DNA of 64,000 bases from Sphagnum magellanicum (taxonomy: Eukaryota > Streptophyta > Sphagnopsida > Sphagnales > Sphagnaceae). The notes below the pieces were generated by a model. That model was not told the DNA's origin. It searched no databases and saw only the letters and a program-made list of their open reading frames with translations. The DNA is taken from the NCBI GenBank assembly GCA_021904315.1, contig CM038921.1, positions 10,012,146-10,076,145 on the forward strand. The letters run 5' to 3'. This document shows positions 460 through 63,465 of the stretch, piece after piece (within the stretch, counting starts at the first letter, position 1; every line of letters begins with the position of its first letter). Both the position numbers and the translations under genes were made by a program.

Positions 460-1081
460 CTTCTCTCACATTAATAAGCCACTTTTCATAATTATTAGAA
501 GCCCATCCAAATTTGTAATTGAGATGACATCATTTCAAGTTCATGAACAAACTTGCAACTAAAAATATTCGTTTGATATCAATTTGAAATTTGGGAATGC
601 CAAGGCTTTACCTTGATAGAAAGGAAACATGTGGGTACCTTACTGAATGTTCCTTCCACCATGTCAGAGGTTGGACCTCTTCTTCCAACACAATAATGTG
701 ATGAAATAGATAAATAGTTCGTTCATATGCTAACATGGCTTTAGTAGCCTCATTATTAGATACTAGAACATCAAAAAGGAAATTTGCATTCATTGTTTTA
801 GTTTGCAATGCGTTATTGCCACCAATAAGCTCAAAAACTTGTTGGTTTTCACCAACCAAGGTATCATAGCTTTTCATGTTATACCCAACAATAATAATCT
901 TCACTATGCCCCTAGCCATTAAATTCTTATATGAAGGTCTAGCATGAAAATAAACATGTTGTGGGCCCTTACATTTCAAATTTAGATGCAAAAAAAAATG
1001 AATGGTTTCAAAACACTCACTACTTATATTGCCAGTATACATATTAAATTTCAAGCTTTGAATCAAAGTCCACATTGCCAA
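460..1081 (-). pseudogene. hAT transposase C-terminal (dimerisation domain) remnant
   Basis: Read on the minus strand, the conserved tail of plant hAT transposases is recognisable. A WWKEHSVRYPHVSFLSR segment is followed by an in-frame TAA stop at about 608-610. In the same frame come LGIPKFQIDIKRIF and then, after a frameshift, NLDGLLIIMKS. In intact hAT proteins these blocks run together as W-W-x(3)-E...RFP...LGI..SQIE.ERIFSLAG..L...NLD.L..I.KNWP. The stop and the frame change show it is dead. The 157-residue open frame upstream of the stop has no separately recognisable domain; most of it would be the middle of the transposase. Family assignment rests on this motif order only. No ends of the element were found. 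Confidence 0.75.
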
Positions 1082-1948
1082 AGTGGCCTAGGCCTATGTG
1101 CAACAATTGTGAATTTGAATCCTTACAATTTAATGTTGATAATGATAGTGGTATGTAATGCATATGAGAGGAGTTGGTATTGTTTCGATTGATTCAGAAC
1201 ACATTACTTGATAATGGGTGTTGAAGTTTTTGTAACAACACATGGAATTGTTTAAGTTAAACCATATGGCATTTTGGTTACAAGCATTATGAAAAATTGT
1301 GTCCTTAGAGATTACACTGGCATGCAATTAAATCGTCACGGAAACTATTGTGCAATTAAGGTATAACTACAGTATGGAAATACGATGATTTAATAATTAA
1401 AATGCCACATCAGAATATTTCATAATTATAATTTAGTTGCACATTAATTGCAACTTGGACTTTATACGAGTGTATGCATGCAAATTATATACGATGATAA
1501 TCAACAGTAATTTGACATGATCACAAGTTGTAGTGTAGTGGCTAATTTCAACTATGTTGCAATTGGTGTAGCTTTAGTACTAAGTGAACAATTACTTTGC
1601 AACTGGCATACGACATTGATGCGTATGATCATGCCACGTGTATAGTTAAATAAAGGTCCATGACATCTAGAACTTGCAACTTGTTTGCAATTAAAAGTCA
1701 ATTAAATTGGTTAGTTTTATGATTAAGTTACAACCAAATGTGCCACTATGATTTCACTACATAACTACTATTTGTCCACTATTTTGGAACTAAAGTGTTC
1801 AACTCATCTAGAATTAGTTGTCAACTATGTGGCAATTCATACTATTAAAAGATTTGTAGATTGTGCAATTCATTGAAAATGTAAATGCAGGCCTTAAGTT
1901 GGATTGGAATGGTGTATTAAAATGTTTATGAGTATGTATGTATGTATG

Positions 1949-1983
<35 letters not shown>

Positions 1984-2897
1984 TTGCTTCTACATTTCAA
2001 ACCTTTTTATAATATATTATTAAATGCTTCATTGATATGAACCGATTCCTTTATTGAATAAATTAATTAAAATAATTAATTATGATAATTATTTAAATAA
2101 TTAAAATTTAAATAATGTAGTAAATATTATAGTCTTATTTTTTGTGATTGATGTTCAATTGTTGTGTTAATAATATTTTACTACATTGGAATTCACAATA
2201 TTATTTTGGTATACATACATATCAAACCATAAAATTTCATGAAAGGTGAAAGTCTATTTTTGAATTGAAATAAAAAACAATGTGTGTATTTTATTAAACA
2301 TTCAATAAAGGTGTACATATGAATATGTTTTTATATACCTCAATGTTTTCTACTTAAATTCATTTTTATTATTTAATATTTTAGAATGAATTATTTTTTA
2401 CTAATTTTTAAATTAATAATTAATATGTAATATACTTAATTACCATGAATTAATTAAATAAATTAAATAATAAACTATTCATATGAATTCATTAATCAAA
2501 TTTGATTAATTAGTATTTAATTGATTCATATAATCAATCTAGATAATTAATTATCATATAATTAATTTAGATAATTAAATTCCAAATAATTATGTCAGAC
2601 GATTAATTATAAATTTCAAATTAATTTTCTTAAAAATCAAACAGAAAGCATGGAAAATGTTTTTTGGTAGTTACAACTCAATTGCAATTAGGGTGTCACT
2701 AAAAGATTTAACCCATATGCTTTGTTTTCAATATCTCATTTCATAAATATATAAAAAAGGGGTGTTTCCTCTTACATTTTCACATTAAAATACATGTGCC
2801 ATGTTGGGATGAATTCATAAAAGTTTAAAGGCAAAACACATGACAAATTTAAAAACTTATGTGACTACTTTTTAGTTCACTTACTTTTTAAATATTC
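1082..2897. other. AT-rich spacer with scattered TTGCAA-type motifs
   Basis: No gene. Between about 1100 and 1870 short motifs of the kind TTGCAACT and GCAATT recur in both orientations, as they do again around 2680 and 3290-3430. Such motif clusters resemble subterminal repeats of DNA transposons, but I could not pair ends for an element here. Confidence 0.4.
1932..1981. repeat. Compound (TATG)n-(TA)n microsatellite
   Basis: Uninterrupted TATG units pass into about thirteen TA units. Ordinary simple repeat. Confidence 0.9.
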
Positions 2898-2993
2898 TAC
2901 CTTCCTATTTACCTACTTGCCTACCTAAATAAATAGGTCCTACTTTTCTACCTACCTAAATAGTAAGTAAGTAGTTAGGTAAGTAGGTAGGTT
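2898..2993. repeat. CTAC-rich segment facing GTAG-rich segment (potential hairpin)
   Basis: CTACCTA-type units (2898-2960) are followed by AGTAAGTAGGTAGG-type units (2961-2993), so the two halves can pair. The same tetranucleotide theme returns at 5530-5950 and inside the CACTA-type element at 55.5-57.4 kb. Confidence 0.6.
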
Positions 2994-5529
2994 GGAGCTA
3001 TATCAACTTACCTACCTATGGTTATGTACTGACCTCCCTAGGTACATATATATATTTGTTTCCGAAATTCAATTAATATGCCATGTGGCAACTTTTGATT
3101 GTGCCACATGTCATAATCCAAGATTACTAAAACAAATAATCATAATGGACGAGGGATATCAATATTTCAAAAAAATCATGAAAATTCCTCATAGTGCCAT
3201 GTGTTAAATTTTGATGGATGGATGAAAAATGACATCAACATGACATTATGATTATAGTCATAGGGGAGTTGCATAGTAGTTGAAAAGGAGTTATTACAAC
3301 AAAATTGTAATTGAGTTGTAATGAGTTGCAACTTTTGCAACTTGTCTAATAGCACTCATGGTGTATAAATATAGTGAGTTGCATGTGTTTGATGCAATTC
3401 AAAAATTGAGTTGCAAGGCTATTTGCAAAACACCCCTTTTTCTCATAGTGAAGTGGAATGATTGCTTATGGTAACAAATGTTGATAGAATCAACATATTT
3501 GAAGGTTTTTTGGAAGATGACAACATGATTTATAAATTGGATTTTCATAGGGGTTTTTAATTTTCAAGTGGGTAGCCCTGCCCTAATGCATGCCTTGTCC
3601 CACTCTTGTCTCCCCATCCCTTGAACTTTTAGTTCACGTAATCGTTTTCTACAAAGTTCTTTATGCATGTTTAAATGATATTTTTTTCATGCCAACATAA
3701 AGTTTTGTGTCATTCATTGCATATTAGCATGGTTTGGACTTAACATAACCAAAACATGAACTTGCAAATTAAGACACATCAAGATATAAATAAAGCACAT
3801 GTGACCATTGAAGATAGTGTAGCTCTTAGGGTGTTTGGGATGGCACCTTTGTTTTTTACCTAAACAATAACTTTGTTGGTTAGTTGGAATTAAATGAAAA
3901 TGTATTTTACAAATTTTGCTAGAATTACTCCAATTGTGTTAGGTGCTTCAAATAGCCCTATAATCGCACGCTTTGGTTGTAAGGCCACTCAAAGAATGAT
4001 TTGACTGAAATGAATGACTTCAATAATCAAAATGGTTTCCTTGAAAGAATTTGAAAAATTCACAAAACAAATTATCACAAAATATCTATGGAAAAGAAAA
4101 ATGGTCAAAATGAACACGAAAAGTCTTTAAACTTCACATCAAAGTTATAGAATTGCATGTCTTTTTTGGTTTTTATTGAAGATGTTTGATAAGCAATGGG
4201 AATGTCTCCCTAATTTTTTCCTTTTAGTCCCTTATGGGAAAAAACCCACTATAGAACCTTATCAAACATTAGTTTTGCATGAAAATAACAAAGTAAAAAG
4301 GAAAATAAAATATCATTGTAGAATAAATCTACACAATTGAATTATTCCAAAAAAAAAATCTTTGTAAATCTCTTAAAGTTTCCTTCTTTTGTTACATATC
4401 CTTTTTTTGTAAACTTGAAGAAGTAAAGATTTAGACATTATTACAATTCATGGTTTTTCAAAAGGTTCAAGTTGACAAACAAGTCTTTTTTACTAGTGGA
4501 CATGTACATTTTGGGTGAATGCAAGGTAAAGTGGCTCATTTTTTATGTCACAAGCTTGATTTTTGCAAATGTTTTGTGTTTAATGCCTATGGTGAATGAT
4601 TTAATTTTAAATACATTAAATGATCACTCATTCTAGATTAACAACTTGACTATGAAGACATTTGCACTATGATTTTTTGAAAATAATGCATTCACTATCA
4701 ATAGTGGACTTTTGAAATAAAAAATATGGACTTAACAATTATTGGGCACAAAAAAATCAATAATTCATATTGAATTTCACTTTGAATTATTTATTGTGAT
4801 TAAGCATGGGTTGAAAAATGAGATCATAAAGTTGATTATCAATTTCTTTTTGTAAAACCTTAACCAAATTGTAGTTATGAACTTTTGAATAGTTAGAATT
4901 GGACCTTGTTTTCAAAAATCCTTTTGAAATGATTTTTTTTATTTGTTAATTTTTTTGTGACCAATGGGTATGTAATTGAAAAATCTAAATGGGTTTTCAT
5001 TCTTATGGACTTTATGGGTTTTTATTTTAGGATTTTGAAAGTGATTTCAGCATACTTGTAAACAACAACATTTTTCAAGATGGGTTTTGACCTCGTTTTG
5101 AGAGGTTTCATAAGTGACCAAAACTTTAATAATTAAACATTACACTGATGAAAACCTTAGAAATTGAAACCATATCCATATGGATCATTTATAAAACCTT
5201 GTTTATGACTCTTGTGAGAGCTATATTTGCCTGAAATGAGCCACTGAATTAAGCACTTACCCTTTTGACTATAGGTTTGAGGCTTGAATGACATGTGTAT
5301 TTTTTGATTGGTGAACTTGATTAAAGACCTATTTGACTATTTGTCAAATTGAATATCTAATCAAATTATACAAAAAAATGACCACCTTGTTGAAAATGGC
5401 CAATGGTTTTTAATCAAGTTGAACAAAGCAAAATGACATCTTTAATCAAGATGGACATGGTGTTTTAATCAAATGGGACATTTTATGCTACCTAATAAGC
5501 AAATATAACTACAAATGAGGGTAGGCAAT
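2994..5529. other. AT-rich spacer
   Basis: No gene recognised. Open frames here are short and without family resemblance. Around 5330-5490 motifs such as TTTGAC, TTAATCAA and AATGGCCAA recur, similar in style to the subterminal TTTGACTAAA/TTGACCAAA motifs of the CACTA-type element at 55.5-57.4 kb. A CATAGTG end-like sequence stops at 3450, but no partner was found. Confidence 0.4.
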
Positions 5530-17448: not shown

Positions 17449-17602
17449 TCGCTCCAACAAAAGGTGACCCTGTGCGTCAAGTGATTTCATTGGATTTTGA
17501 GTGAATTCACTGATTGTAGTGAACATGGATAATGAAGAAATAATGAATTCATTGATCTAATGAACAGGGACTAGTGAATTGCACCCACATTTTGTAATAG
17601 TG
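17449..17602. mobile_element. Short CACTA-derived MITE (about 154 bp)
   Basis: The right end reads ACATTTTGTAATAGTG, the complement of CACTATTACAAAATGT. The left end, CTCCAACAAAAGGTGACC, looks like a mutated CACTACAAAAG. The inside carries GTGAATTCACT and AGTGAA motifs. The arrangement matches the ends of the 46.4-51.9 kb element and the copy at 35888-36022. Left boundary and target duplication are uncertain. Confidence 0.55.
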
Positions 17603-22084: not shown

Positions 22085-23300
22085 TTGGTGAGGAAGGGAG
22101 TTACCTTTTCATTGGGGATTAAGTTACATTTTACCATGGGGAGAAGGGGACTAAGTTGCACTAGGGAACAAGTTTTTGAATGTTTGACAAGAAAGGACAA
22201 GGGGTATATTTTGTCAAAATTAAACGTTTTCTATAAAAGCTCTTGAAGTGTAGATATTTAAAATGAAATTGCATTTTTTATTGAACCTATAAACTAAAAG
22301 TTATGACCCAAAAAAAAAATGAAGGTCAAATTTTCCAAGTTTACCTTCTCCTTGGGGGATAAAGGAATTAAGTCGCCCAAGGGAGCAATTTTCCTTAGGG
22401 AACAAGTTCTTAAATTTTTTGACGAGAAAATAAAAGGGGTAATTTTTTCCAAATCAAACATTTTTTATACCATTAGAAATCTATCGAAATGTAAATGTTT
22501 AAAACAATCTTGCATTTTCGATTTGAAGCTATGAGCTAAGAGTTATGACCAAAAAAAATAAATCAAAGGTCCTTTTCTCCCCTAGCTTTTCTTTTTGTCA
22601 TAACTTTTAGTTCATAGCTTCAAATTGAAAATGAAAAATCATTTTAAACATCTAAACTTTGATAACTTTCCAATGGTATAAATAATGTTTGATTTGGACA
22701 AAGTTTATACATTGTATTTTTTTGTCAAGCATTTTGGAACTTCCTCCCCAAGGGAAAATTGCTCCCCAAGGCAACTTAATCCCCTTCTCATAGGGGAAAA
22801 GGTAATTTAGTCTCTTTCTCCATGGGGGAAAAAACAACTAGAAAATTTAACTCTTGATTATTCTTTTCATCATAACTTTTAGCTCATAGTTTAAATCAAG
22901 AATGCAAGATCATTTTCAACATCTACATTTCAAAAGCTTTCCAATGACATTGGACAAAGTTTACCCTTGCATTTTCTTATCATAAATATGGGAAATTATT
23001 TTTTGAGGCAACTTAATACTTTTAATTTAATCTCTTTCTCCTTAAGGGAGGAGGCAACTTTGAAATTTTGATTCCTGATTTTTCTTTTTTTCATAACTTT
23101 TAAATCATCATGGCTTTTGATACAAAATGTAATCGCTTTAGATATCTACACTTCAAGAGCTTTCCAATGGCATATATATTTTTAATTTGGACTAAGTTTA
23201 CCCCCTATACTTGCTTGTCAAACATTTGAAAAATTACTCCCCCAGGTAACATGGGTGGAACTACCATTTTGTCTCCTCCCCAAGGGAAAGAGCCTTTCTA
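22085..23300. repeat. Fold-back array of five ~230-bp modules inside hAT element B
   Basis: Two modules run forward (about 22085-22310 and 22320-22552) and three run in reverse (about 22590-22815, 22858-23070, 23080-23300). Each contains a CATAACTTTTA/TAAAAGTTATG block, a CTTTCCAATGG-like block and a CCCCAAGGGAAAA/CCTTGGGG block in fixed order. The axis of inversion is near 22570. Modules have diverged, so the array is old. Confidence 0.75.
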
Positions 23301-26433: not shown

Positions 26434-28717
26434 GTCCAAGGCAAGGATATTATTGTGTCTAGATTCATTATAGAGTATAGTAGCTTAAGGGATTTTGGCC
26501 CAGCACCTACGTAATAGGTCTATTTTTATATGAGGATTTTTGAAAGATGATATTTTGGATTGTGTTAAAAGTTGAGATTAGTTATAGAGTTATAATATCT
26601 TGAAGGATTTTGGTTTCTTTTAGATGATTTTTTGAAGATTGTATTTTTGCATGGTGAAATATTTGAGTTTTCATAGTTCTTCTTTTGCCTTAAGATACCC
26701 TTTTTAATGTAAATGGCAAGGCCACACTTTGTGTGACACACCCCCTTGTTTTGTTAGGTATATGTTCAAAACCAGCCCTTGAAACACCATAATCAAGACA
26801 CACCCCTTCTTTTAGAATTGGAACAAGTTGTCAGAACCTGAGACTTGGCAAAATCTTTAACTAGCATAAATGGCAGGCTCCAAGGGCATTTAAGCCTCGA
26901 CCATACCTAGTGTGTATCCCTCTACATGTCATATATGCTATAAAAGTTCTTGTACCCTGATACACAAGCTGCTCCCTCCCTTTCTTTGCTCTCCTAATTA
27001 AAAGGCCCTGGACACCCCATCTATTTTGAATATGGGTTTTTGCACTTACTTCTTACAATTTGGGTTGATCTAATAATCATCAGGGACATTTTGTAGGGCC
27101 ATTGGTTTGTATGCAAGTATTTCTCAGTCTAGTCTCTTTGAATCCTCCCATCATTAATGAAATGTGTGTCGGCTCTTGTTCCCCTCTGATTTGCATTAAC
27201 CCAACCCTAACCCTAACCCATTCCTTTCTTCATACATTTAAGTATATCAGTTCCCATGAGTGTCTTTTCTTTCAATTTTATGGTGTAGCTGATCTCTGGA
27301 TCATCTTTAAGCCAATTTAGCCAAATTTGGCTATTAGAAAAAATTTAGAGGAAAATTTTTAAAACAGCCTTTTCTTTTTTGCTACTTGATTGAACCATTT
27401 AGAGAAATCTGGCTATTTTAAATTTTCAAAAAACTTTTGAATTTTTTTTTCATGAACTCAATGAATTTACAACATAGAAGTTGAAATATTCACACTAAAA
27501 CATGGCTGCTTCTTATCAGACCCATCCTCCAGATTCATAAAAACCATGCTTTTTTTCTAGTGTACCTGGAGAGCAACTTACTTAGCATAAAAAAGTCGAC
27601 TGGCTTTATGAAAATACAATTGCCCGCCATGTTACATTTCATAAAGCCCCTCGCGGTTTTCTCCCATGATACCCAGTGGGTATCAAATGGGTATCCACCT
27701 GGTAACATGGGATTTTTTTTATAAAAAATGCATGTAAGGGCCAAGGGCACGGCTGATACAAGAATCAGGCCCATCTTGATCCACCTTGCACACGCCTTTA
27801 TTCCCAATTATGCCCAATTATGCCTAGGGCCTTGGGTGTTACCTACCTATACATCAACAACTAAAACCATAACTTACTTCTTCCAAATCTCCATGGCAAC
27901 AACAGCACTTCACACCATGGTAATAATACTTTGAATTGAGAGCCACCAGAATGAATGAGGCAACTTCTGGAAGGAAAGAGAAATCTTGTCATGCAGCAGC
28001 GTTTCATTACTCCCAAATTTCAACCTGAAAAAATATGATTTCAACCTATACAAAGGATTTTTCATGGACAAAAATGGCCCAAATTTGCCAAATTTTTATG
28101 ATAAGTACTAGTAGGTAGCCAAGAACATAGAAGGATTCTGGTTTCGTTTTCGACTTTCATATTTAGTGTGTAGCCAAATTTGGCTAAATTATCTTCTAGA
28201 TGATTACCACCTTAATAACTACATCAGCAAATACTTAAAAGAAACCCAGATCTTGTAGTCCCTCAATCACTCTTCTCTCTCCACCTTAGGAGGGTGGAAT
28301 TTTGAACGCATTGTCATAATTTATGGAAAGAATTTTGAAAGGTACCCAAGATTCTTTTTTTTTAATACGCATCCTTCGTTCACAATAACAAGGAGTGTGT
28401 CACACTGTCTGTCACCTTGCCATTTAGATTAAAAAGTATCTTAAGCCAGAAGAAGAATTATGGAAACTCAAATATTTCACCATCCGAAAATATAATCTTC
28501 AAAAAATCCTCTAAATAAAAACCAAAATCCTTCAAGATATTATAACTCTATAACTAATCTCAAGTTTCAACACAAGCCCAAAAAATATCTCCTTTCAAAA
28601 ATCCTCATATAAAGATAGACCTATTAGGTATGTAGGGGCCAAAATCCATTAAGCTACTATACTATATAATGAATCTAAACACAATATCCTTTGCCTTGGT
28701 ACTAGGCAAGGCCAATA
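26434..28717. mobile_element. 2.3-kb structure with ~320-bp inverted terminal segments
   Basis: The segment 26434-26757 (from CCAAGGCAAGGATATT to GTGTGACACACCCC) reappears inverted at about 28385-28717, with matching order throughout. Between them lies unrelated AT-rich sequence that itself contains a smaller inverted pair around a TTTAGCCAAATTTGGCTA palindrome (about 27318 and 28171). A third, single copy of the same segment stands at 62550-62885. No coding capacity is recognised. It could be a long-TIR element or two opposed insertions of one short repeat; no clear target duplication was seen. Confidence 0.6.
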
Positions 28718-31709
28718 AACTTGGTGTGTCTCTCTTTCGCTCTTGTGGCATCAAGAGAACAAATGTAGTGTGGCAGCATCATCTTCTTCTTTATTAAAGA
28801 GTGGGGGCATTCACAAGCACCATGTGATTGGGATCTAGTTATTGGCTTTCTGTAGGTGCACTTTGCCCATTCTCTACTCTTTTCATGTTGCAGTTTCTTT
28901 TATGGGCACAGTTTTATGTGGGGACCCAATCAGGGTTTTTTTAAGGAATTTCTTTCTCTAGCCCAAGTGATGACCACCATCTATAGTGAAGATTTATCAA
29001 AATGGTGATCATCCTTAGGAAGATTTGGCCAAATCTGGCTATAAACCAGATGGGGAGTACAAATTATTTAATCAACTTTGTATATTCACGGCCACACATT
29101 GAAAACAAAACAATCTAGCAATTTTCCTTATTCGGTTGCACTTCTAGCGATGGAAACCTTCCAAAATCATTTTCTGAATTTTATTTTATTTTTTCTTTTA
29201 GGCTACATTTTGCCAACCAAAAAAAAAAGGCTGGACCCAATAAGCACAGCATAGTATACCAGTGTTTAGATTTTTTGAGAACTGTATTTATACCCTTCAT
29301 TTTGGTAATGACCCTTCCTTGGGGCTTTACCTTATAGAGGAGTGGATGGGAGATCCTTGCATTGTGGAAAAACCCCTATCAACATTGGCAGCATACTCCC
29401 TGATAAAATTGAGAGAATCTGATGGATATATGAATCTTGTCCTGATCAAACCAGCACCAATTGATGAAACCCTGCCAATCATAAATAAACCAAAGCACCC
29501 CAAAAAAGGCGAATACAAGGAACAAAATAGAAGGACCCACGTCCAAGAAGACAAGAGAACCATATAAGAGGGTCAACTACAAAGGGAACATCAAGTTCTT
29601 GAACCCTCTCTTGTTGCAAGAAACATATCAAATAGGGAAAGGTGAGGACTTCCTGAAAAGACAACTAGCCTAGAAGAACCCTCACCTAGGACAATAGCGA
29701 TCGCTTGTGCATGTTGTAATGCCATTGACACCCTCTATTTTTAAAATGTGCACGAAATTGAAAAAGGTGGGCCTCTAGTGCATTTCACTCTCCACATTAT
29801 GTTGGCACATCAATCAAGAAACATGTCCGCCTATTGGTGTAAACATCCAAAAGCTTTCACACATAGAGGAAGAAACATATTTGTTGAAGATCAATGATGA
29901 TAAAAATCATCCTTCACTTCAATCGTAACTATTGTCGCAACCTCACAAAAAAAAAACAGCCCATGAAACCAAATCAACTTGAATGCGATCAGTGATGACA
30001 ACAACTGCCATTGTGTGAACATAATAAACTGATAACACAATGTTGATTTAACAACACAAGGACTATAAGACAAAGAACGAAAGAACATGAGTCTGCTATC
30101 ATGAGATATGAAATCTCACATCTCTCTCACAGTAGTCACAAAAGCATCTCAAACCAATTAATCGATCAGTTATGAAAGATGTGAGATATATGAGTTTTGG
30201 GTGCTCAAAGTGAGTGCATATTAACATCTCACTAAGTTGGAAATTAAGATCAGGGGTAGATGACATGCATTGCAGTTTGACCTTGGATTTGTTGCAAGTC
30301 CCTGCATTTTTTGCTTTGGAAATCTGAACCCCTCGTACATTTTTAATGATTATCTTTAGAGGAATTTTATACAAAGTACATGGAAGCTTCACTTTAGTAC
30401 ATAGTCAAACGAAATCAAAGTCATTTGTTTTGTCAGAAGAGTTTACTGATCACTGTTTGGTTTTTTTTTTTGCATTTTTGTGATCTAGGTAGCTGTTACA
30501 GTGCCCAAACTTCAACCATCACCTAACTAGCTGCCATATCTTTATTCATTAAAGTGCTACAAACAAAAAACAATTCTTTAATAAAATCTTTTTGTTTATT
30601 GGGAATTAGCAACCTATGGACAGAGCAAGGTCAGGCCCTAGGGTGATCAAATTGGAGTCTAAATTGGGTATACTTAAATATTATTTGCTTTGAAAAACAC
30701 AAAACACCACTACAATATTGAGAGTGTTACTGCTTGCTTTGTGCAGTGTTGTCCTTTTGGAGGTAAAATATGAGTGGAGATCACAAGAGAGAGAGAGAAT
30801 CGATGCGGACTAGGTAAGCAGAAAAAGCTCACTGAGCTAGGTAACGCCCTAGGTCAAGGGCATCACCGTAAGAAGGGCCCTGTGTCAGGCAGGAGCTGAG
30901 CATGGGCCTGCTTCTGGTAATGCCCTTGACTGATGTGAAGCATGATACTAGAAAAAACAAATAGGAGGCGCTCAAAAATTGGGAGATATTTCCCAAAAAC
31001 ACAAGATACCTCCCAAAAATCAAAACACCCGACAAACAAATTATGAGGCACTGATGTTGACAACATATCAAATTTGGCCCTCCAATTACACTAACAAAAT
31101 TCCCAGAGTGCCTTGGGGTTACCACCGCAGACAGTCCAGGCACAGTCTAAGAGCTAAGACTATTCCAGGTAACCAGCTTGGATACAGAATATGACGCTGA
31201 ATGTCCAATGAGGAAGAGACACATCATTGAAACAGCTGGTGAAGCTTGTGGCGAAGCCAGCTACCCAGCCAGCCAGCAAGAAGAGCAAGGATTAAGGAAT
31301 GTCTGATGCTTTTTCTCCAAGGCAACGCACTCTCCACCATTAGGAAAGGGAATTGAGAATTCAGTTGGCTGCATGAGATTCAGTTGATGAGGGGAAAACA
31401 AAGATGATAGAAATGGCATTGTTCCAAAAAGGAAGGACTAATAAATTACTCATATACCCATGACCACATTGCACTGTCTTCACTCTTCTGCACCCAACTA
31501 GTTTGTAGCTCAATGGACAGCCGTTTTTGTAATCAGTTACATTGATCTCCATAATAAGATTCCATGACTTCAATTTCTCAAAATGGTGGTGTCCCTTTGA
31601 GCTATTTAAGGGGAGGGAGAGAGGGTGTGGGACAAGTGGAGGAGTGTGTTCAGTCTTTAAGAACTTGGACCCATCATAAGTTATTCCATGGGTGTTGTAT
31701 GTTGTTGTT
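28718..31709. other. Spacer without supported gene
   Basis: Open frames (for example 29262-29567, 30829-31143) show no family resemblance. A short block around 29462-29500 (GATGAAACCCTG...CAAAGCACCC) is echoed near 32246-32285, suggesting a dispersed repeat. A CCAAATCTGGCTA/GATGATC-type motif near 28995-29045 belongs to the family discussed under 27318. Confidence 0.4.
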
Positions 31710-46364: not shown

Positions 46365-46600
46365 AGACACTACTAGGAGATGTGACCAAGTTCACCTTGT
46401 ATTTCACTAGGATTTTGAGTGAACTAGGACAGATTCACTATATGAAATCATGGTAAAACATGTTAACCCCGTAAGTGAACGGGGACTAGTTGCTAGGACA
46501 GGTCAATTAAGCTAGTGAAACAAGATGACAATAAGTGATACCCAAATTTAGGTGGAAATTACACCTATTAGTTAAATCAACCTACAACACTAGTCATTTA

Positions 46601-46735
46601 AGAGGGTTTTTTCACCAAGTGTGGTTAGTTAATTTAAATTGTTTTTTCATATTGTGTTTAGTTAATTTAGGAGAATTTTTTCACAAATTATGGTTGGTTA
46701 ATTTAAGGAGATTTTTCCATCTATTAACCATTAAA
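46601..46735. repeat. Short tandem repeat, ~33-36 bp unit
   Basis: TTAGTTAATTTA (or TTGGTTAATTTA) followed by a TTTTTTCA-like stretch recurs at about 46625, 46658 and 46694. It lies just inside the left subterminal region of the CACTA-type element; such minisatellites are common there. Confidence 0.6.
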
Positions 46736-47022
46736 TATGGGTAATTAACTCCATAGTATTTTCATCTTGTAATTTCCATGTGTCCATCTAAGAAATCAAG
46801 ATGACAAGTATAGAAACATGCATAGAAACTTGTAAGGTTTGATGATCCTTGTTTGAACTTTCAGTGTGCTTGCAATTTATACAAATGAAGAGTCACCACT
46901 ACCCTTGGATGACATTTTGTTGCCCTAAACTGCCTAGACACACCACATCAATAAATTTATGACAATGGACAATTTGAGTGAGACAAAATCAATGCAATAC
47001 AACTATTGATCAATTTCCTTAC

Positions 47023-49088
47023 TTGAAACGCTTTCAATTCTTTCTTTCCAAGTTTTGATGCCCAATAAGCGCCCAATGTGCAATGGGCACTTCCTGTAGC
47101 TGGATCCTGCCATGTACCAGCTCATTTTCTGAGAGAGCATCCTCTTTGCCATAGAAGCAAATATGTATGCAGGAATTTAGCAAAATCAGACAGATTACTA
47201 ACACAACTTTATGAAAGTGCAGAGAAATCTCCTTAACAACACTTTGACGGGAACAGGACAAGGAGTGCAGACAAAAACTTAAGAGAGTTGCTCATCATAA
47301 AATGTCAGACCATCACCTTCATCAGAAATAGCAGTGATGGGTTGCCATGACTACTACCCACTAACTTTATTAGCGCCTAGCAGCAGTGGGTGTAAACAAA
47401 TTCCTACATAGCTCAGAAACTGACAAGGCTCTCAAAGCAATAGTTGTATTCAAAGTCAAGGTGAGAGATCTCTCTCTATGTAGTACCTCAGATATGCCAC
47501 CCTTGGGACAGAAAATCGTGACACAAAATCATATTCGCTATCTTCAGGTGCGAGGGCAGTTATTATGACACCACCACGACCATGAAAGTCCATCATTTTG
47601 TGAAATTGAGGCTTCACACGTTCAACATCTGCACCTGATGGTAACTCAACCTTTTGTAATCATCACCAAACATTATCAATCAGCAAAAAACAAAAAGAAC
47701 ATTCATTTGTTTTTGGTTCACAAATGTAGAACCAAAGGGGCTGCTGCTGCTTTACAAGTTCACAGTTTGAGAGCTCTACCAGATAGTCACCAAGTGAAGT
47801 TTCACCAGCCCATTTGATTGCAACTCCTCCCAAAGCTTCAGAGAGAAGAAATGTGTCATTGCAGGGAACAGCAGGTACAAGAGGAAAGTTGAGTTGCACA
47901 ACACCTTTACCACCTGGGCGCCTTCTCTCTGGCCTCTTCCCCAACTCATCTTCTTCCTTAGGCAACTCCTCATACTCTTCATAGCCCGACACCTTAGTTG
48001 CTTTCAAAACCCCAGATTTTGTGTGAAATAGAACTGTGTCCCCCAACACAATCCCAGATGCAAAAAGAAGATGCGCAGATGCCAATGTTGCATGCCCACA
48101 TAGATCAACATGCTTGCACCTACTGTAGTCAGCTCTGTCTCTGTCTCTCTCTCTAACACACGCACACACAACATCATCCTTCCTGCTTGTACTTAAACCC
48201 TTTAAACCTTAAACCCTAAATCTGTATGTATCTTTGCAAATAGACAGCAGTTTCTGCAGAAATGGATTCAACAAACCTCAATTGTGGGAGTGAACCAGCT
48301 GAGATCAAATTCATTCTCCTCAACCGCAATGCCCTTTTTCTGTTGTTGCACATCTTTTAAGGTTTTTCCATTTTCATCATCAACTTCCAACAGTCTCCCT
48401 TTCTGTGCATCTTTGCTTCTTGCTGTTGTGTTCTGTCTCTTCACCAAGAAAGTTGTCTCTGATAGATTGAATTCCCGGGCAATAATACTCCTGTTCTGGA
48501 TCATAAACAATTCTGAGTTCGAACTTTTCCAAATGTCTTGAATGGAACTAGAGGATGTGGGAAGGACAGAACTTGTGCATAATCGATTTCGGCAAATAGC
48601 TCTTCTTCTACGTCGTATTTCTGCGCGATTTGCTTCAAATCCACATCAGTCATACGCTGCATCACTTCCTCCATCACGCGGTTCCTAATATTTTCTTCGT
48701 TAGGCATAGGAATATTTCCTTCAACAAGCTCTTCCTCCGTTACCTCGTCTTCCTCCTCCTCCTCTTGTTCCTCCTTTGACGATGAAGTAAAAGGATGCGA
48801 GTCGAACACTCTCCCTCCTCCTCTCATGTTCATCCCATCGAACCTGGCCGAGAATCCAAGAGGATGATGATGACAGTTTCTCCCTAAAATCTGAGCCCCG
48901 CTCTGATTCTTGAGCGTTGTTGGAATCTCGATTGGGCACAATATCCTCCACACCCCTCGCAGTCTGCATGTAGAATACTGATCAGCAGCAGCAAGCGCGG
49001 GAGTTGTGGGAAGTTGTTCTCCTCGGAGTTGAGAGACGTTGCTGCCACAATGGGCGAGTTTGAAAATGCAAGAACAGAAAGTTGCCAT
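47023..49088 (-). pseudogene. PhzF-family (phenazine biosynthesis-like) isomerase pseudogene with introns
   Basis: Minus-strand exons: 49088-48277, 48112-47780, 47650-47487, 47106-47023, with GT-AG introns. Recognised PhzF blocks in order: SIIAREFNLSETTFLVK (with the catalytic Glu of NLSET), FDLSWFTPTIE, VDLCGHATLASAH, VVQLNFPLVP, GDYL/VELPSGADV across an intron, GVIITALAP, SRF, then KGGISE/DPATGSAHC across the next intron. Two frame breaks are visible: one near 48500-48560, and one near 47503-47508, where SRF and KGGISE are in different frames (exon length 164, not a multiple of three). The first 195-residue frame starts MATFCSC, resembles a plastid transit peptide plus an acidic Glu-rich linker, and only weakly resembles the usual PhzF start. 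The final exon is missing or badly decayed (traces near 46845-46945). PhzF-like proteins are DAP-epimerase-fold isomerases of unclear role in plants. Sequencing error could explain a single break, not the whole pattern. Confidence 0.75.
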
Positions 49089-49449
49089 TGCGACCACCTC
49101 AAACACTGAAAAAGAAATCCAAATCCGAAGAAATCATGTCTCCCTTTGACCCGTCTCTCTGTGTACCTGCCTTCCTCCCTCGCACTCATCTCTGGTCCCA
49201 CAAACGAGCTTCTCCCATGCGCACAACAAAAGTGCGCAAAGAATTAGGAGCAAAATATCCGAAATTTGCTCCAAATCCATCTTCTAGGGTTGGTCTCATG
49301 GGTGACAGGAGTGGGTGGGGACTCGTTTGGCATGCTTGCTGATTAGGGCAATTCACGGTTCTGTAGGTGATGGAGAATTGGGTGAGTCGAATCCATAAGA
49401 CCTACCAAACCCAATCCGCAAGATAGTGAAGAGAAGTCTCAAATTCGCG

Positions 49450-49486
<37 letters not shown>

Positions 49487-49517
49487 GTGAGTGATATATC
49501 ATGCACTGCACAGAGCG
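49089..49517. promoter_or_regulatory. Divergent spacer between the PhzF pseudogene and the + strand frame
   Basis: About 430 bases separate two start codons pointing away from each other. A (GA)n microsatellite at about 49453-49482 sits just before the + strand start, a common position for plant core-promoter or leader GA repeats. If both frames were captured as one piece of DNA, this would be their original bidirectional promoter. No TATA box is singled out. Confidence 0.45.
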
Positions 49518-50094
49518 ATGGCTGTATCCTCTTGCCTCATCCCCATCCCACAGCAGCTTAGCCTTCGCCCTGCCTTCTTCTTCCTCCAAGCATGTTCTTG
49601 TAAGCCTAGAAAAGTGTGCCACAGATGGGATGAAGCAATGCTGTGAAGGAGATGTTGTTAATGATGCAACAGCTAGCGCAAGGAATTGTAACAACAACGG
49701 GGAAGCTCCAAGCCAAGTGCATCAACAAATATTGGCTTCATCAGCAGGAGGTAGGGGATCAGCAACAATTCAAGGTGGATACGGGATGGAGCGCCTAAGA
49801 CCGGGATTGAGGGTCGAGTTTGTGAGCAATTGGACGCTCAAAATGAAGCCTGTGAATCATAGAAGGTTCAGTCTCAGAAGGAGTTATTACGGATTTGGAA
49901 GTATGGCTGAGAAAGGACCTCTGCTTCTTGCAACCATGGGCAATGTACCACAGTGTATAGAGACCTCTTCTGTTGTTGCAGGTGCTTTGCAAACTCTGAT
50001 GTTCTGTCAGTGTCTCTACATGATGTTTGCTTGTTTGCATGTCCTGTGCAATCTTGGTGATGTTTTGGTTCTTTTTCATACTAGCAGACCTTAA
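49501..50094 (+). CDS. Unrecognised reading frame, possibly plastid-targeted or captured
   Basis: An open frame of 197 codons begins at ATG 49501. A second ATG at 49518, in another frame, opens with MAVSSCLIPIPQQLSLRPAF, which looks like a plastid transit peptide and meets a good splice donor (TCTT/GTAAGC) at about 49587; the true gene may therefore be spliced. The middle of the long frame (GYGMERLRPGLRVEFVSNW and following) is basic and of even codon character, but no family is recognised. It ends in a hydrophobic stretch (GALQTLMFCQCLYMMFACL). Starts about 410 bases from, and points away from, the PhzF pseudogene, within the same CACTA-type element. I do not assign a function, and whether it is expressed is unknown. 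Confidence 0.35.
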   Translation: MHCTERWLYPLASSPSHSSLAFALPSSSSKHVLVSLEKCATDGMKQCCEGDVVNDATASARNCNNNGEAPSQVHQQILASSAGGRGSATIQGGYGMERLRPGLRVEFVSNWTLKMKPVNHRRFSLRRSYYGFGSMAEKGPLLLATMGNVPQCIETSSVVAGALQTLMFCQCLYMMFACLHVLCNLGDVLVLFHTSRP

Positions 50095-50116
50095 AGTTGA
50101 GAAAGTGCACATGGTG

Positions 50117-50630
50117 ATGGCATCCTCAATAGCTGCAGCAAGCTTCTTAGATGTTTCCAAGCCACAGACTCGAAGCACATCCAAGAGACTAGCACAGAAT
50201 GTGGACAATGAGGCAAACCAGGCAGGAGCACAGATGCCAATGGAGTCTTCCTCCATTGCTGCCAAAAGTGGAACAGATGCTCCCAAGTGCCAAACCCCGA
50301 AGAGTCTCAAAAAGACTACTAGCTCATAAAGCAGTCAATAAGGCAAGTTAGGCAGAAGCCAATATGTCATTCAAGTCCTCCATAGTTGCAGAGAGCTTAT
50401 CAGTTACCAAGTGCCAAACCCAAACTGCCTCAAGAAAATTAACACACAAAACATATGCAATGGCAAGTCAGGATGAAGAGCACATGGCATTGCAACCCTC
50501 CATAGCCGCAGAAAGTATATCAAATAGTCCTGAGTGCCAAACCAAAAGTGTCTCAAAGATAGTAGCTCCAAAAATGGACAGTAAGGCAAGTCAGGAGGAA
50601 GTCCCATCGGGCTTATGAGCCAATTGTTTT
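50117..50630 (+). pseudogene. Degenerate array of four ~41-residue protein repeats
   Basis: Four copies start at about 50117, 50240, 50364 and 50484 (spacing 123, about 130 and 120 bases). Each encodes SSIAAxS, a C/PQT-x(2-3)-S-K/R motif, and a tail such as ASQxEE. Examples are MASSIAAASFLDVSKPQTRS and MALQPSIAAESISNSPECQT. Copies 1-2 and copies 3-4 are in different frames, and a stop follows copy 2, so the array no longer forms one protein. An upstream frame (from 50027) runs into copy 1. The repeat is not one I recognise. Confidence 0.6.
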
Positions 50631-51700
50631 GCAGATAATAGATACAAATACTGGAGATTCATGAAGCATACCATAGATATGGTTAAGGTTCTAGAAAGCA
50701 TGTTGTCAAAAAACCCTAAAACAATGAGGTTCTACCAATTCCTTAGAAGAAATGTCATGTTAGAAAAAGTGTGGCAGATTTTTCCTATTGCCACTCAATG
50801 CCAAGGTGCACATATAGCAAACCTTGATGTGTCCCCAAATTTCAAAAGTCTTGGAGGAGGTCATGAAGGAGGGGATGGATTTCCAAGTTTGTTGGTACAC
50901 GTGAGCTTTTTTGGACTCTAATTGCTTCTATTTCAAGTCTGCATGGATGCCTTCCAAAGTTACAGATTTGACATCATCCCACATGCCATACATCTCACCC
51001 GCCTATCTTTTTGTTGTATTTGTATCCATGACTCCTCTCTGCATCATAACTTGATTGTGGACACGCCCTTAGAGCTTGAGATGCATTGCTGGCCACACCT
51101 GAATTGTGAAATTGTTGGTCATAATCAGGTTGCAAAAATTGTTCACACAATTACAAAGATCTCTTATAATAGTGCATTTTTTGTCACAAAATAGTCTACA
51201 TGCACTGTGTTTCGCCTGTCCACAGATGATGGCCAGCATTTAGACTCTCAACAATGCCTCAACTGAATACCCATGTTGAACCTATTGTTTATGCAGGAAA
51301 AACAAACATGCAATGATTTTGGCTATGGCCTTAGCTAGTCCACATTCACACATGTATTTGGAGCATCATCAAAAGTTCAATATGGACCTAGCATATGTTG
51401 GACATCTCACAACTTAAGGATTTAAAAGCTTCATATTTTATTGTCCCACATGGGAATGAGTGGTTTTTGTCTTCTGCATGCTACCTCAATATCGTGCACA
51501 AGAAAGTCAAGCCATTATTTTTCCACCACATCCATAATTTTTCCCTCCCCCAAAAGCAAGAGTAAAAATGTAGGTGGAAGTAATCATCAGACACATGATC
51601 AATGCTTGAAATGGGAATATATAGATAAAATATGTCACATTTAACTAATTAATTTACTAATGCCCTGAACCCAATTAACTAGAGATTTTTCAATAATTAT
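50631..51700 (+). other. Interior of the CACTA-type element, function unknown
   Basis: Open frames 50661-50921 and 50922-51194 follow each other on the + strand with coding-like composition but no recognised domain. They may be 3' exons of the same captured locus as 49501 or chance frames. The rest is AT-rich transition into the right subterminal region. Confidence 0.35.
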
Positions 51701-52879
51701 TTTAATAATGTTAAAAAAATAAACCTAGTTTACAAACTTCACCCTTAGTAAACATGTACACCATATAGTGAACCATTTTCACCAATGAAGGTAAGGGCAG
51801 TGGAATTATAGTGAACTTAATTCACTTTTATGGTTGCACAGTGAAATAGCCTAGTGAACTACACCACACTTTCCTAGTAGTGAGAATGTGGCATCATGGC
51901 CTTGTGAATAGGAGCAAAGTGGTTGATTAGGCAACTGAGCTACTCTTAATGACACCAATTTCATGAAATCACATGGTGACCTTACTTTGTGATTTTTTGT
52001 ATTTTTTTTCCCAAATGAGAAAAATAATGTTAGTTTTTATTTTAATTTCCAACAAAAGGAACACAATTTATGACTAAAAGTGCATCCTTTATGAAACAAA
52101 TTGATGTTCATAGACCAACAATTCATTATATTTATTAAATTTATGGAAATAAAGGGATTCACAAACAACATCAATCTTCCTAAATATTTTAAGATAAACA
52201 AATGTATAGGAGAAAATCTTGGTTATAGAACCTTTTAGATTTGAAATTTTGTTTCAAGGCCAATAGGCCAAGTGGAAGGGCTAAAAATCCAAAAGGTTTT
52301 ATAACCAAAACTTTCCCATACATAAAGTTCAAGTTGATTTTTCTTTTAGTCTTTTTTGTAGCTTTTTTTAACTTTAGGTTTTCTTTTAGTCATCTTCCTC
52401 ACCCTTAACTTTAAGTAAAGCATATGAGGTTTTCTTTTGTGCATTGTCATTTTCTTCAAGTTTTTGTGTTGTCACTTTCCTTTTTCTTTTTATGGATCAA
52501 AGCTCCAACATCTTCATTATTGTTCACCTTCAACATCTTCTTTGTTGTTCTCCTCCAATATCTTCATCATTGCTTATTTTGTTTCTTTGTTTGTTTCGTT
52601 GTCTTCTTTCTTGTAATATTTATGTTGTAATTCTTTGTTTATATTCTTCAAGCTTTGCAAGGATTTTGTTTGGCATTTGCTTCATTTTCACCTTCTTTGT
52701 TTTATTCTTTTATCTTGTAGCACTTTGAAGATGCAAATTTTTTCTTTACTAGTGGTAACCTGTGCTTGCAAGGCACGATAGGGCACTGATGCAGTGTAAC
52801 AGTGAAAGATGCCTTCCGCTTATCATACCGGGTATGCACCACTCACCTAGCGGCCACTTTTTAAAATATTCAAACAATC

Positions 52880-60400: not shown

Positions 60401-62549
60401 AAACAAACCAAATTTGAGACAATACACCACCTCTCTCCCCATCATATATTTTATAATTGTCCAATGTAGGTGAAATGATAATTAGATGGATTGTTTAAAT
60501 TGTCACATTCAAAAAAAAAATTAAATTGTAAATGAATTAAAAAATGTAAAATCATATTCAACATTTAAAATTTCAAAATTTTAATTATCCATGGTGTAAT
60601 TAGATTTAAGTGAAAATCAAATTGGAAAATATGGATGAATTTTAAAAAAAAATGAATTCCTATTCAACTTTTGAAACAATGACACTATTTCTATGATACA
60701 TATAAAATTTACATGTGGGTTTAAAAAGCGTAACATAATAAAGCCAATTTTTTTAATAAAAATGTACTGAAACTTTTTTAATATAAGAATTTTTTTTTTC
60801 AATGATAATTTTTTTTTTTGGGTCATTGAAAAGTCCAAATCGCATTAAAAACTCCAAGGTTTCAAATGTATGTTTTGATCAATAACATGTTTAATAATAT
60901 TTATATGTTGGTTTATGAACAATTTACTAAGGGCATAGGAGAATGCACATTGGATAAATATCTTGCTAACTATCAAGTGTAAAATGTGGACTTTCATATG
61001 TCATTTTTGAACCAATTAATCATACATGGGACATATTCAAATGACAAATTTTTTGAGAGTTTTAGCATGAATTCTTAAAACTAAGACCCAAATCTTTGGA
61101 ACACCATAACTTCCTAAAAACATGTTTTTCTTAATCATCTGGCCTAACTTTTTTGTAATTTTTGTTGAAACCTTTTCAATGAATTAAAGATCACTCAATT
61201 TGAAAGTGATTGTTTTTTCAAGTTGCTTTTTGAACATTCTCAACTTCTAACAAGCTCCAATTTTCAAAGTGAAAGTTTATCTTGAAAGTCCAATAGTTTA
61301 ATGGTGGACCATGTAGTTTAATTTGTGATTGATAAGTTGAAAAGACATATCATGTTTTAAATGAAGGCATATAAAATAACTAATTGATTTGTGACATATA
61401 ATTTAAATTTCATGTGACAAACATTTTTGTGATGGGAAAACTCAATGTGTTTCTTTTCTCCTTTTTAGTAGTGATGATCATCCAAAAACAAATTTAATCA
61501 AAATTTTCAATAAATATGCAAGTAAAAGCATATGAGAATCATCTTATATTCTTGACTACCTAGAACTTATGATAAAAATATGATGATTTTGAAAAAAAAA
61601 TCCGTTAAATTTAGTAAATTTGGACCTTTTTTCAATGAAAAATCCTTTGTATAAGTTGAAATCATATTTTTTATGTAAAAATTTGATAAACATTAACCAA
61701 AAGAAAATCATTGGAAAGTGGCCTATTTGACTGACATATTGGACCAACAATGCATCTATGATGGACAACCCAACAACAATGTCACATTGCACGATGAAAA
61801 CAATGACACAAAAGCTTTCCAAGTTCATATTATATCTACCTGATGACATCTATCAACAAAGGATTTTACAAAATTCTAGTTTTAGGTTGATTAATCAATA
61901 TAGATTATTTACATGTTATTTGAAAGACATGAAATATATGATATAGGTTGTAATTTGAATTGAACAAATTTTATGTATGGCATATTGTTCCTTTGATTAT
62001 CAAATCCTTGATGGAATATTGAAAATAAGAGAGTATGATTGAAGGTGTTCCTTATATAGCCTTGAAGACGATCACACCTTGGCCCAAGGACTCACTAGTT
62101 ATATGTAAATGATATATATCAATGATTTGTTTTTGGCAAAAATATTGATGAAGTCTTTTGAGTGTAAATTTGACTAATTTGATTATTAACAAAATCCATC
62201 AAAATTTAATATCACAAAAAATAAAGAAAAAATAAAGAAGTTACAACTTGCACAACAAGTTACGATAGGTTGAGATTTCAATATTTCAACCTATGGAAAC
62301 AAGTCATTGCAATTTGCAAGCTACAAACTGCATAGAAAATAGGCAATTAAAAACTTGCAAAAAAGATATGTTAGTCACAACACCTCCATATCTAGCTAGG
62401 GGAAACACATGAAGAAATTTCATAAACCTAACTTGATAAGCACAACAAGCACTTGGAGAAGCTTCCTAATGTATTTGGAGAGCACCTTATTATGTCTATG
62501 GAAGAGGAGAGAGTCAGAGGTTAAGCTTTTCTCTTAAAACTTGGGATTT
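57417..62549. other. AT-rich spacer without recognisable gene
   Basis: Open frames are short and low-complexity. A 101-bp tandem duplication (AACTTTGT.ATGTA.CCAAAGTGGCAA) lies at about 59339-59500. TTTTTAGTAGTG at about 61475 is a possible unpaired CACTA-type end. TTGCAA/GTTACAAC motifs around 62240-62370 echo those at 1.1-3.4 kb. Confidence 0.4.
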
Positions 62550-62885
62550 GTTGGCCATGCCTACCAAGGCAAGGATATTGTGTTAAGATTCATTATAGAG
62601 AATATAGTAGCTTAAGGGGATTTTGGCCCCTAGGTAATAATGATAATAATAATAGGTCTATTTTTATGTAAGGATTTTTGAAAGATGATATTTTGGGCTT
62701 GTGTTGAAACTTGAGATTAATTATAGAGTTATAATATCTTGAAGGATTTTGGTTTCTTTTAGAGGATTTTGGGAAGGTTATATTTTTGGATGGTGAAATA
62801 TTTGAGTTTCCATAATTCTTCTTCTTTTGCCTTAAGATACTCTTTAATGTAAATGGCAAGGCCACAAGTGTGACACACCCCTTGT
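62550..62885 (+). repeat. Third copy of the ~320-bp repeat from 26434 and 28385
   Basis: Begins TTGGCCATGCCTACCAAGG and ends GTGTGACACACCCCTTG, in the same orientation as the copy at 26434. Similarity runs through the whole segment. It sits about 600 bases upstream of the ABCE1 start codon. Being single here, it shows the segment can exist without an inverted partner. Confidence 0.75.
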
Positions 62886-63465
62886 TGTTTTGGGAGACTT
62901 TTTGCAATGAAAAAAAATGAGATTTTCTTTTTTCCAGTGTAATTTAGACTAAAATTTCTGTTTTGGGGTCAAAATTCGCCAATTCATCGACCTCACAATT
63001 TATTTTTAAAACAAAAAAAATCCCTGTAAATTCCAAATTCCCAAAAATAACTACCCAAACTATTCACAAGTTAAATTCACAGAGGAAGTAGGCTTGAGTA
63101 GGTCTTTGTGCACACGTGTCGGAATTAGGGCTTCGTTTTGCACAAAAGAATTAGGGATCGGATGCACACGTGCCAGATTAGGGTTTCGTGGCACAAACGA
63201 TTAGGGTTTGGCGACAAGGTCTTTTGCGAGCGCATACGTACGTGGATTGTGTTGCTCTCTCTCTCTCTCTCTCTGTGTCTGCAGTTTCTCTCTGGATTGC
63301 TTCTCGAATATAGTTGGCGAAGGAGAGCTCCTAGGATAGTCCAAGTGCTTCGCAGAAGCGTGAATCCAAGAGAAGCTTTCTTTTTGATCTAGTGCGCGAT
63401 TGGAGCTAGGAGGTTGGGAAAGGTGTGGGGGCGGGGGGTTGGGGGAAGAGAACAAGGCCGGTGCG
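62886..63465 (+). promoter_or_regulatory. Promoter and leader region of ABCE1
   Basis: Contains two CACGTG G-box cores (63113-63118 and 63167-63172), two telo-boxes (listed separately) and a (CT)n tract at about 63253-63273, typical of plant core promoters or leaders. The transcription start is not defined. A leader intron ending near TCTGCAG at about 63282 is possible but unproven. Confidence 0.6.
63178..63209 (-). promoter_or_regulatory. Two telo-boxes (AAACCCTAA) upstream of ABCE1
   Basis: TTAGGGTTT occurs at 63178-63186 and 63201-63209, that is, AAACCCTAA on the minus strand; near-matches (TTAGGGCTT, TTAGGGATC) precede them. In plants telo-boxes are enriched in promoters of ribosomal-protein and translation genes, which suits a ribosome-recycling factor. 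Confidence 0.7.

Follow-up and report, generated by a model that had tools for sequence, protein, structure and literature searches.

Pack-CACTA elements of Arabidopsis were reportedly presented by Catoni et al. in 2019. Elements of the Pack type are, in the passages of the literature at hand, described mainly in flowering plants. The Arabidopsis Pack-CACTAs, as portrayed in passages of PMC8903248 and PMC13317346, combine CACTA-type ends, the lack of a transposase, captured coding DNA and mobilised copies. These features are shared by the element described here, which occupies positions 46368-51882 of a 64,000-nucleotide stretch of the Sphagnum magellanicum genome (assembly GCA_021904315.1, contig CM038921.1, positions 10,012,146 to 10,076,145; further called the window); unlike those of Arabidopsis, it resides in a moss, and its 3.6-kb captured block consists of parts of two divergent genes and the intergenic region. 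Pack-TYPE elements of rice and maize are also similar, gene pieces being carried and multiplied by non-autonomous elements and acquired sequentially, but the captured pieces in the examples given in passages of PMC8903248 are 58-280 bp long. CACTA elements of Chenopodium, according to passages of PMC8978399, contain host gene fragments as well, an 80-bp AP2 fragment being an example; in contrast to the Sphagnum element, those described there have transposase-region domains. In the Sphagnum genomes described in PMC9946827 the CACTA superfamily makes up 6.8% of the genome; the present element would fall within that annotation, and the passages of that paper at hand do not mention gene capture by transposons. 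Pack-CACTA elements are already known, judging by passages of PMC8903248, PMC13317346 and PMC8978399, and the present one adds an example from a moss; a literature search by title and abstract start, with most subscription journals outside its scope, found no report of a Pack-CACTA from a moss.

The element, 5515 bp long, can be considered, with a probability of about 0.96, a Pack-CACTA, i.e., a DNA transposon of the CACTA superfamily that has no transposase and carries a block of host DNA. The inverted CACTA-like ends and the identical AGA triplets outside them, reported in a first-pass annotation of the window, were found at the same places (Table 1), together with the dense subterminal TTCACTA/TAGTGAA zones that it had noticed: the AGTGAA/TTCACT motif, counted on both strands, occurs five times in each terminal 160 bp versus a mean of 0.126 per 160 bp elsewhere. 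Five or more motifs are also held by 0.14% of the other 160-bp stretches of the window, which are sited around 36 kb at a further CACTA-like end. When CACT...AGTG pairs were sought in the window, with no fewer than 11 of 13 matches required between the terminal inverted repeats (TIRs) and with an equal flanking triplet, the pair of the element (12/13) was returned, as was one low-complexity pair, CACTTTTTTT (11/13). Ten first-order Markov control sequences contained 0-3 comparable pairs each (1, 0, 2, 2, 0, 3, 0, 1, 3 and 0). Since such controls also reach the end criteria, the window alone is only suggestive; the copies present elsewhere in the genome were needed and are decisive.

The genome assembly searched comprises 438,994,042 bases in 31 contigs (referred to as C with a number; copies are named after their contigs). 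Twelve copies of the element, 5.3-6.5 kb long, were found with the 5515-bp sequence on 10 contigs, three of them on C15, which gave the first-pass proposal of further copies a firm answer. Four, the window copy included, are full-length uninterrupted matches, and the other eight are matched in two or more pieces, interrupted where an insertion lies or in and around a GA microsatellite. An independent search with window positions 50600-51230 recovered the same 12 copies at no less than 97% identity (16/16 candidates scored). Both ends and equal flanking 3-bp triplets are present in every copy, the right end reading CACTA in 12/12 and the left end CACTA in 11 and CATTA in the C14 copy; the subterminal repeats are both direct and inverted. 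The first-pass annotation had named, as one part of what would contradict it, such ends occurring in related species independently of the interior; in this genome ends and interior stand together in all 12. As in Pack-TYPE elements generally, a host gene fragment with an identified donor is carried without a transposase and has been mobilised together with the ends.

The pairwise Kimura two-parameter distances among the copies range from 0.019 to 0.050 (mean 0.033), and each copy has 18-59 private changes, i.e., 0.36-1.16% of 5066 gap-free columns; in a FastTree tree of the copies the support of many nodes was weak, and the tree was not used. One copy, C15c (L020/L026), is alone in having exon 1 of PhzF interrupted by a 937-bp insertion. 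The flanks of the window copy, when joined, match one place apart from themselves, C13:20852874-20852926, a putative related empty site that spans the insertion point (3/3 candidates), with about 16 bp on one side and 37 bp on the other. The genome was searched in this way with the joined flanks of the window copy, and those of all 12 copies were compared with the loci already extracted; the junction-spanning matches of C15b (own flanks, 69-75%) and C9 (against locus L004, 71%) are of low identity and repetitive and were not used.

The donor of the captured DNA is located at C4:23869483-23873257 on the minus strand and matches element positions 636-4237 at 95% identity. It contains an intact PhzF-family gene of six exons with GT-AG introns encoding 505 aa (PF02567, E 1.2e-65); for intron 3 the boundaries tried first were not GT-AG, and the GT-AG choice that was adopted also fits the family. 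This gene stands head to head with a repeat-bearing open reading frame (ORF) on the opposite strand, which crosses the capture boundary and is followed about 0.9 kb further by PPR motifs (PPR_2, E 4.2e-19); the ORF and the motifs may well form one gene. A single 3.6-kb segment was captured, which extends from PhzF exon 5 through exon 1 and the upstream region common to the two genes into the 5' part of the second one, and at C4 the coding sequence runs on past both boundaries. An intact PhzF locus elsewhere in the genome, which the first-pass annotation had proposed to look for, is thus at hand, and it is free of CACTA ends, no end motif being present in 6.8 kb around it. Nor is the window copy the sole PhzF sequence: a genome search with PF02567 (47/47 candidates scored) gave 26 matches, distributed over the 12 copies, the donor and three other loci, of which two lie on C19 and one on C2. 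The intact donor and the 12 copies together uphold the interpretation of the interior as captured host gene DNA. Within the window itself one ORF matches PF02567 at E 2e-9 and a second at E 2.5e-4, the latter below the curated cut-off, and with the gene structure of the C4 donor this bears out the intron-containing PhzF-family copy recognised earlier.

Two features tie the copies to one another and to the donor. A 171-bp stretch of the donor, holding the intron 1 acceptor and 88 bp of exon 2 at the start of the PhzF core, is missing from all 12, so it was lost in one founder before amplification, and from this founder all 12 copies descend. The four GT sites of the donor gene are present at the corresponding positions in 12/12 copies; since introns are kept, the capture took place at the DNA level, as had been concluded from the window sequence. 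The sequence of events would then be that a CACTA vehicle took one contiguous segment of the head-to-head gene pair on C4, and that the founder lost the 171 bp and spread to 12 sites.

Table 1. Coordinates of the Pack-CACTA element, its flanking triplets and the captured DNA in the window.
Feature	Positions	Strand	Remarks
Target-site duplication, left	46365..46367	.	AGA, equal to the right triplet
Left terminal region	46368..46987	.	TIR CACTACTAGGAGA from 46368; TTCACT/AGTGAA subterminal repeats; common to other CACTA families and transposase-bearing elements
Junction of transposon end and captured DNA	46988..47002	.	About 15 bp; no alignment to the donor, weak alignment to related left ends; exact breakpoint imprecise
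Captured host segment	47003..50604	.	One uninterrupted stretch at donor C4:23869483-23873257, apart from the 171 bp lost near 48484
PhzF exon 5	47023..47106	-	Donor exon 6 outside the captured segment
PhzF exon 4	47487..47650	-	1-bp deletion versus donor in the window copy
PhzF exon 3	47780..48109	-	Preceding AG acceptor reads AT in the window copy
PhzF exon 2, truncated	48277..48485	-	First 88 bp and upstream splice acceptor lost with the 171-bp deletion
PhzF exon 1	48573..49088	-	N-terminal extension, with the start codon retained
Region between the two divergent genes	49089..49517	.	Putative shared promoter (inferred role); GA microsatellite at 49453-49491
Divergent gene, 5' part	49518..50604	+	Contains repeats about 120-130 bp long; provisional as to start codon and exon structure
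Third segment	50605..51205	.	Not in the C4 donor
Right terminal region	51206..51882	.	Inverted TIR CACTACTAGGAAA ending at 51882; 93-95% identical, in whole or part, to right ends of related elements
Target-site duplication, right	51883..51885	.	AGA

The first-pass annotation had also seen at least one further frame in divergent arrangement. The plus-strand frame proved to belong to the 5' part of the second donor gene; the minus-strand ORF 48501-49133, at first considered a separate gene, perhaps for a plastid protein, is no further gene, since the donor shows PhzF exon 1 there, and a search of this ORF gave no match in Pfam and only a meaningless one in the PDB (E 0.64). The GA microsatellite between the divergent genes is variable, the aligned stretch around it being 30 to 389 bases long among the 12 copies. 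The third segment (element positions 4238-4838) has four other related places in the genome, on C15 (89%), C8 (86%), C19 (76-82%) and C5 (76%). The C15 and C8 relatives have, no more than 3 kb away, diverged left ends belonging to the same CACTA group; near those on C19 and C5 there are none among the matches listed.

The vehicle is not unique to the PhzF element, its ends being common to at least two other types of gene-carrying elements and to transposase carriers. One 13-base end motif has 141 exact hits in the genome, versus 29 for its reversed sequence. The L039 type is represented by C9:7934380-7942424, about 7.85 kb long and flanked by TTT triplets, with a left end of 620 bp at 98.5% and a right end of 319 bp at 93.4% identity to the element; the best 40 of 746 candidates include at least six copies of this size and no fewer than four 2.75-kb forms. 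It carries dynamin-like (PF00350), Ras-like (PF00071) and protein-kinase (PF00069) fragments, whose donor places are likely to be on C6, C5 and C17. The L051 type, C13:10038270-10046350, is 7.9 kb long and flanked by TGT, its left end (641 bp) and right end (683 bp) being 96% and 94% identical to those of the element; DHHC (E 0.00023) and amidohydrolase-like PF22039 (E 0.00086) matches were found in it, both below the curated cut-offs. The 7.85-kb relatives were also considered as the autonomous partner; this idea was dropped, as they carry host gene fragments and the one copy tested gave no transposase match.

Both ends of the element also bound a 17.2-kb element with TCC duplications and a tnp2 (Transposase_21) region, C5:17185303-17202486, its left end being 97% identical over the 487 bp fetched and its right end 92.7% over 685 bp. 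The left end was found, too, at C14:2697901, beside a 532-aa open frame of tnp2 (PF02992, E 2.5e-68) and a DUF4218 match (E 1.3e-32); the tnp2, DUF4218-bearing and third frames of the C5 carrier match this C14 element at 81-90% protein identity. At least 152 matches to PF02992 were obtained in the genome with the best 150 of 657 candidates scored, so relatives of the transposase are plentiful. The first-pass annotation saw no transposase in the element, and in agreement with this tblastn with three ORFs of the C14 carrier gave no hits at E 0.01 to the element or to the 12 copies, other kinds of transposase not having been sought across all frames; the C5 element, as a positive control, was matched by the same ORFs. 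A tnp2-type transposase supplied by related elements with the same ends would have moved the Pack-CACTA in trans.

How the C4 segment came to lie between these ends is a matter of two models, with both of which its contiguity is compatible. Template switching during break repair at an excised element has about an even chance of being the mechanism; it is favoured on account of the sister 7.85-kb family, in which sequences from several donor loci are pieced together. The other model, put forward for the Pack-CACTAs of Arabidopsis according to passages of PMC8903248, assumes that two neighbouring CACTA insertions fused and moved as one unit with the DNA between them. It is plausible, though at below even odds: it accords with a segment that is contiguous and internal, and in the 7.85-kb family a 655-bp direct repeat, 99.1% identical, lies on both sides of the 4.4-kb middle in L039, an arrangement that a fusion of two elements might produce; in the 2.75-kb form on C8 the repeat occurs once. 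Yet this middle matches separate places, two regions of C5 and one on C17, rather than a single intervening stretch, and the C4 segment has no CACTA end motif beside it, although excision would leave little trace. Another explanation of the 7.85-kb family, insertion of the 4.4-kb block into a captured dynamin-like fragment, became doubtful on account of the direct repeat on both sides, and with it the order in which the 2.75-kb and 7.85-kb forms arose.

The carried gene DNA is decaying. In-frame stops occur in exons 1-5 of 4/12 copies (C3, C12, C10 and C15c), 1-bp insertions or deletions in the same exons of four others (the window copy, C14, C15b and C18), and the acceptor AG is lost at further introns in C15 (the window copy), C10, C15c and C11. 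Private exon changes comprise 112 nonsynonymous and 30 synonymous ones, with a ratio of nonsynonymous to synonymous rates (dN/dS) of 1.07. C>T or G>A changes account for 310 of the 457 singletons, and of the 61 fixed C/T or G/A differences from the donor, 48 have a donor C or G replaced by T or A in 12/12 copies, with 13 in the reverse direction. The sequence context of these changes was counted for variants present in at most three copies, leaving out element positions 3081-3139. At positions 636-3080, 49/120 CG, 112/208 CHG and 98/778 CHH sites are changed, and at 3140-4237 the figures are 13/24, 64/114 and 63/381, so that per site the captured part changes at 0.41-0.56 for CG and CHG and at 0.13-0.17 for CHH. 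The terminal regions have similar rates on few sites (CG 3/4 and 2/6, CHG 7/12 and 10/25), and thus there is little left to lose in them. Methylation is the usual cause of an excess of C-to-T changes at CG and CHG sites. The copies would have been methylated, and their CG and CHG cytosines, of which the captured DNA still has many and the ends hardly any, would be turning into T. Such decay can explain why the captured part is more divergent among the copies (mean identity 95.8-97.0%) than the ends (98.2-98.4%); other substitutions, too, are more frequent at 3140-4237, where internal repeats lie (0.086 per site versus 0.030-0.039).

Several observations weigh against the interpretation of the element as a Pack-CACTA moved in trans and carrying dispensable DNA. 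The transposase carrier on C5 is broken, its tnp2 homology being split and containing stops, and the right end of the C14 carrier was not found within 16.8 kb, so that no complete autonomous partner came to light. The putative related empty site on C13 is short, only 53 bp at 87% identity. The origin of the third segment is uncertain. Finally, exon changes common to several copies (22 nonsynonymous, 13 synonymous) have a dN/dS of 0.48, and those between the majority sequence and the donor (24 and 17) one of 0.40; a weak constraint on some master copies is possible, but the latter figure includes the evolution of the donor and so is no evidence of function in the element.

These low ratios would suit a functional PhzF paralogue that was moved by a CACTA element and kept for its enzyme, a reading that is nevertheless very improbable. 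PF02567 matches all 12 copies, and six of them have retained a 279-281-aa open frame in the central part of the gene. Moreover, a hypothetical CAG acceptor in the deletion junction, if used and joined to exon 1, would give a 460-aa open frame in three copies (C9, C17 and C11), on the assumption of donor exon boundaries and with a later acceptor AG lost in C11 as in the window copy; the motif is not present in C1, C3 and C15c, and the remaining six fail to stay open through exon 5, the window copy and C18 falling short by just four codons. Against this, 12/12 copies are devoid of donor exon 6 and of the beginning of the catalytic domain (the first 51 positions of the PF02567 profile are reached by the donor and, among the matches listed, by no copy), the private changes look neutral, and there are the stops, exon indels and acceptor losses enumerated above. 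The PhzF copies would therefore be expected to yield no working enzyme.

It is even less credible that the C4 locus is not a donor at all but an ancient copy of the element whose ends have disappeared. The 95% identity taken alone would allow it, but C4 holds the 171 bp missing from every copy and an intact six-exon gene, its coding sequences continue beyond both boundaries, the surrounding 6.8 kb are free of the end motif, and the third segment is missing there. Chance-matching ends around an ordinary gene locus, conceivable from the Markov controls of the window, are refuted by the ends and duplications common to all 12 copies.

Apart from the Pack-CACTA, the window contains two more CACTA-like right ends, at 17602 and 36022 (CACTATTACAAAATGTGGG and CACTACTACAAAATGTGGG, inverted), in the same orientation and with AGTGAATTCACT-type repeats; as no convincing left ends were found for them, they probably represent truncated members of a different family. 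An imperfect palindrome of 0.7 kb (about 70%) is located at 22236-22940, with related repeats up to 23252, and a repeat of 0.32-0.35 kb is present in three copies of 85-87% identity (26436-26754, 28381-28719 and 62547-62892).

The completeness of the Sphagnum Pack-CACTA record is unusual, since a single assembly contains the donor, a deletion dating back to the founder, 12 copies flanked by target duplications, a putative related empty site, sister families that carry other genes and a relative with a transposase. It offers a natural comparison of the same gene DNA at the donor locus and inside a transposon; in the latter, decay is fastest at CG and CHG sites, which is what methylation would lead one to expect. 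Pack-CACTA copies can also inflate gene counts, as PF02567 matches all 12 decayed copies. A more far-reaching, and rather doubtful, possibility is that one CACTA lineage keeps on capturing genes in this moss: at least three families with different host genes (PhzF/PPR; dynamin-like, Ras-like and protein-kinase; DHHC-like and possibly amidohydrolase-like) are bounded by the same pair of ends, their shorter and longer forms may record the order of acquisition, and the PhzF/PPR intergenic region, multiplied twelvefold, could be a source of chimeric transcripts or small RNAs that act on the two donor genes in turn.

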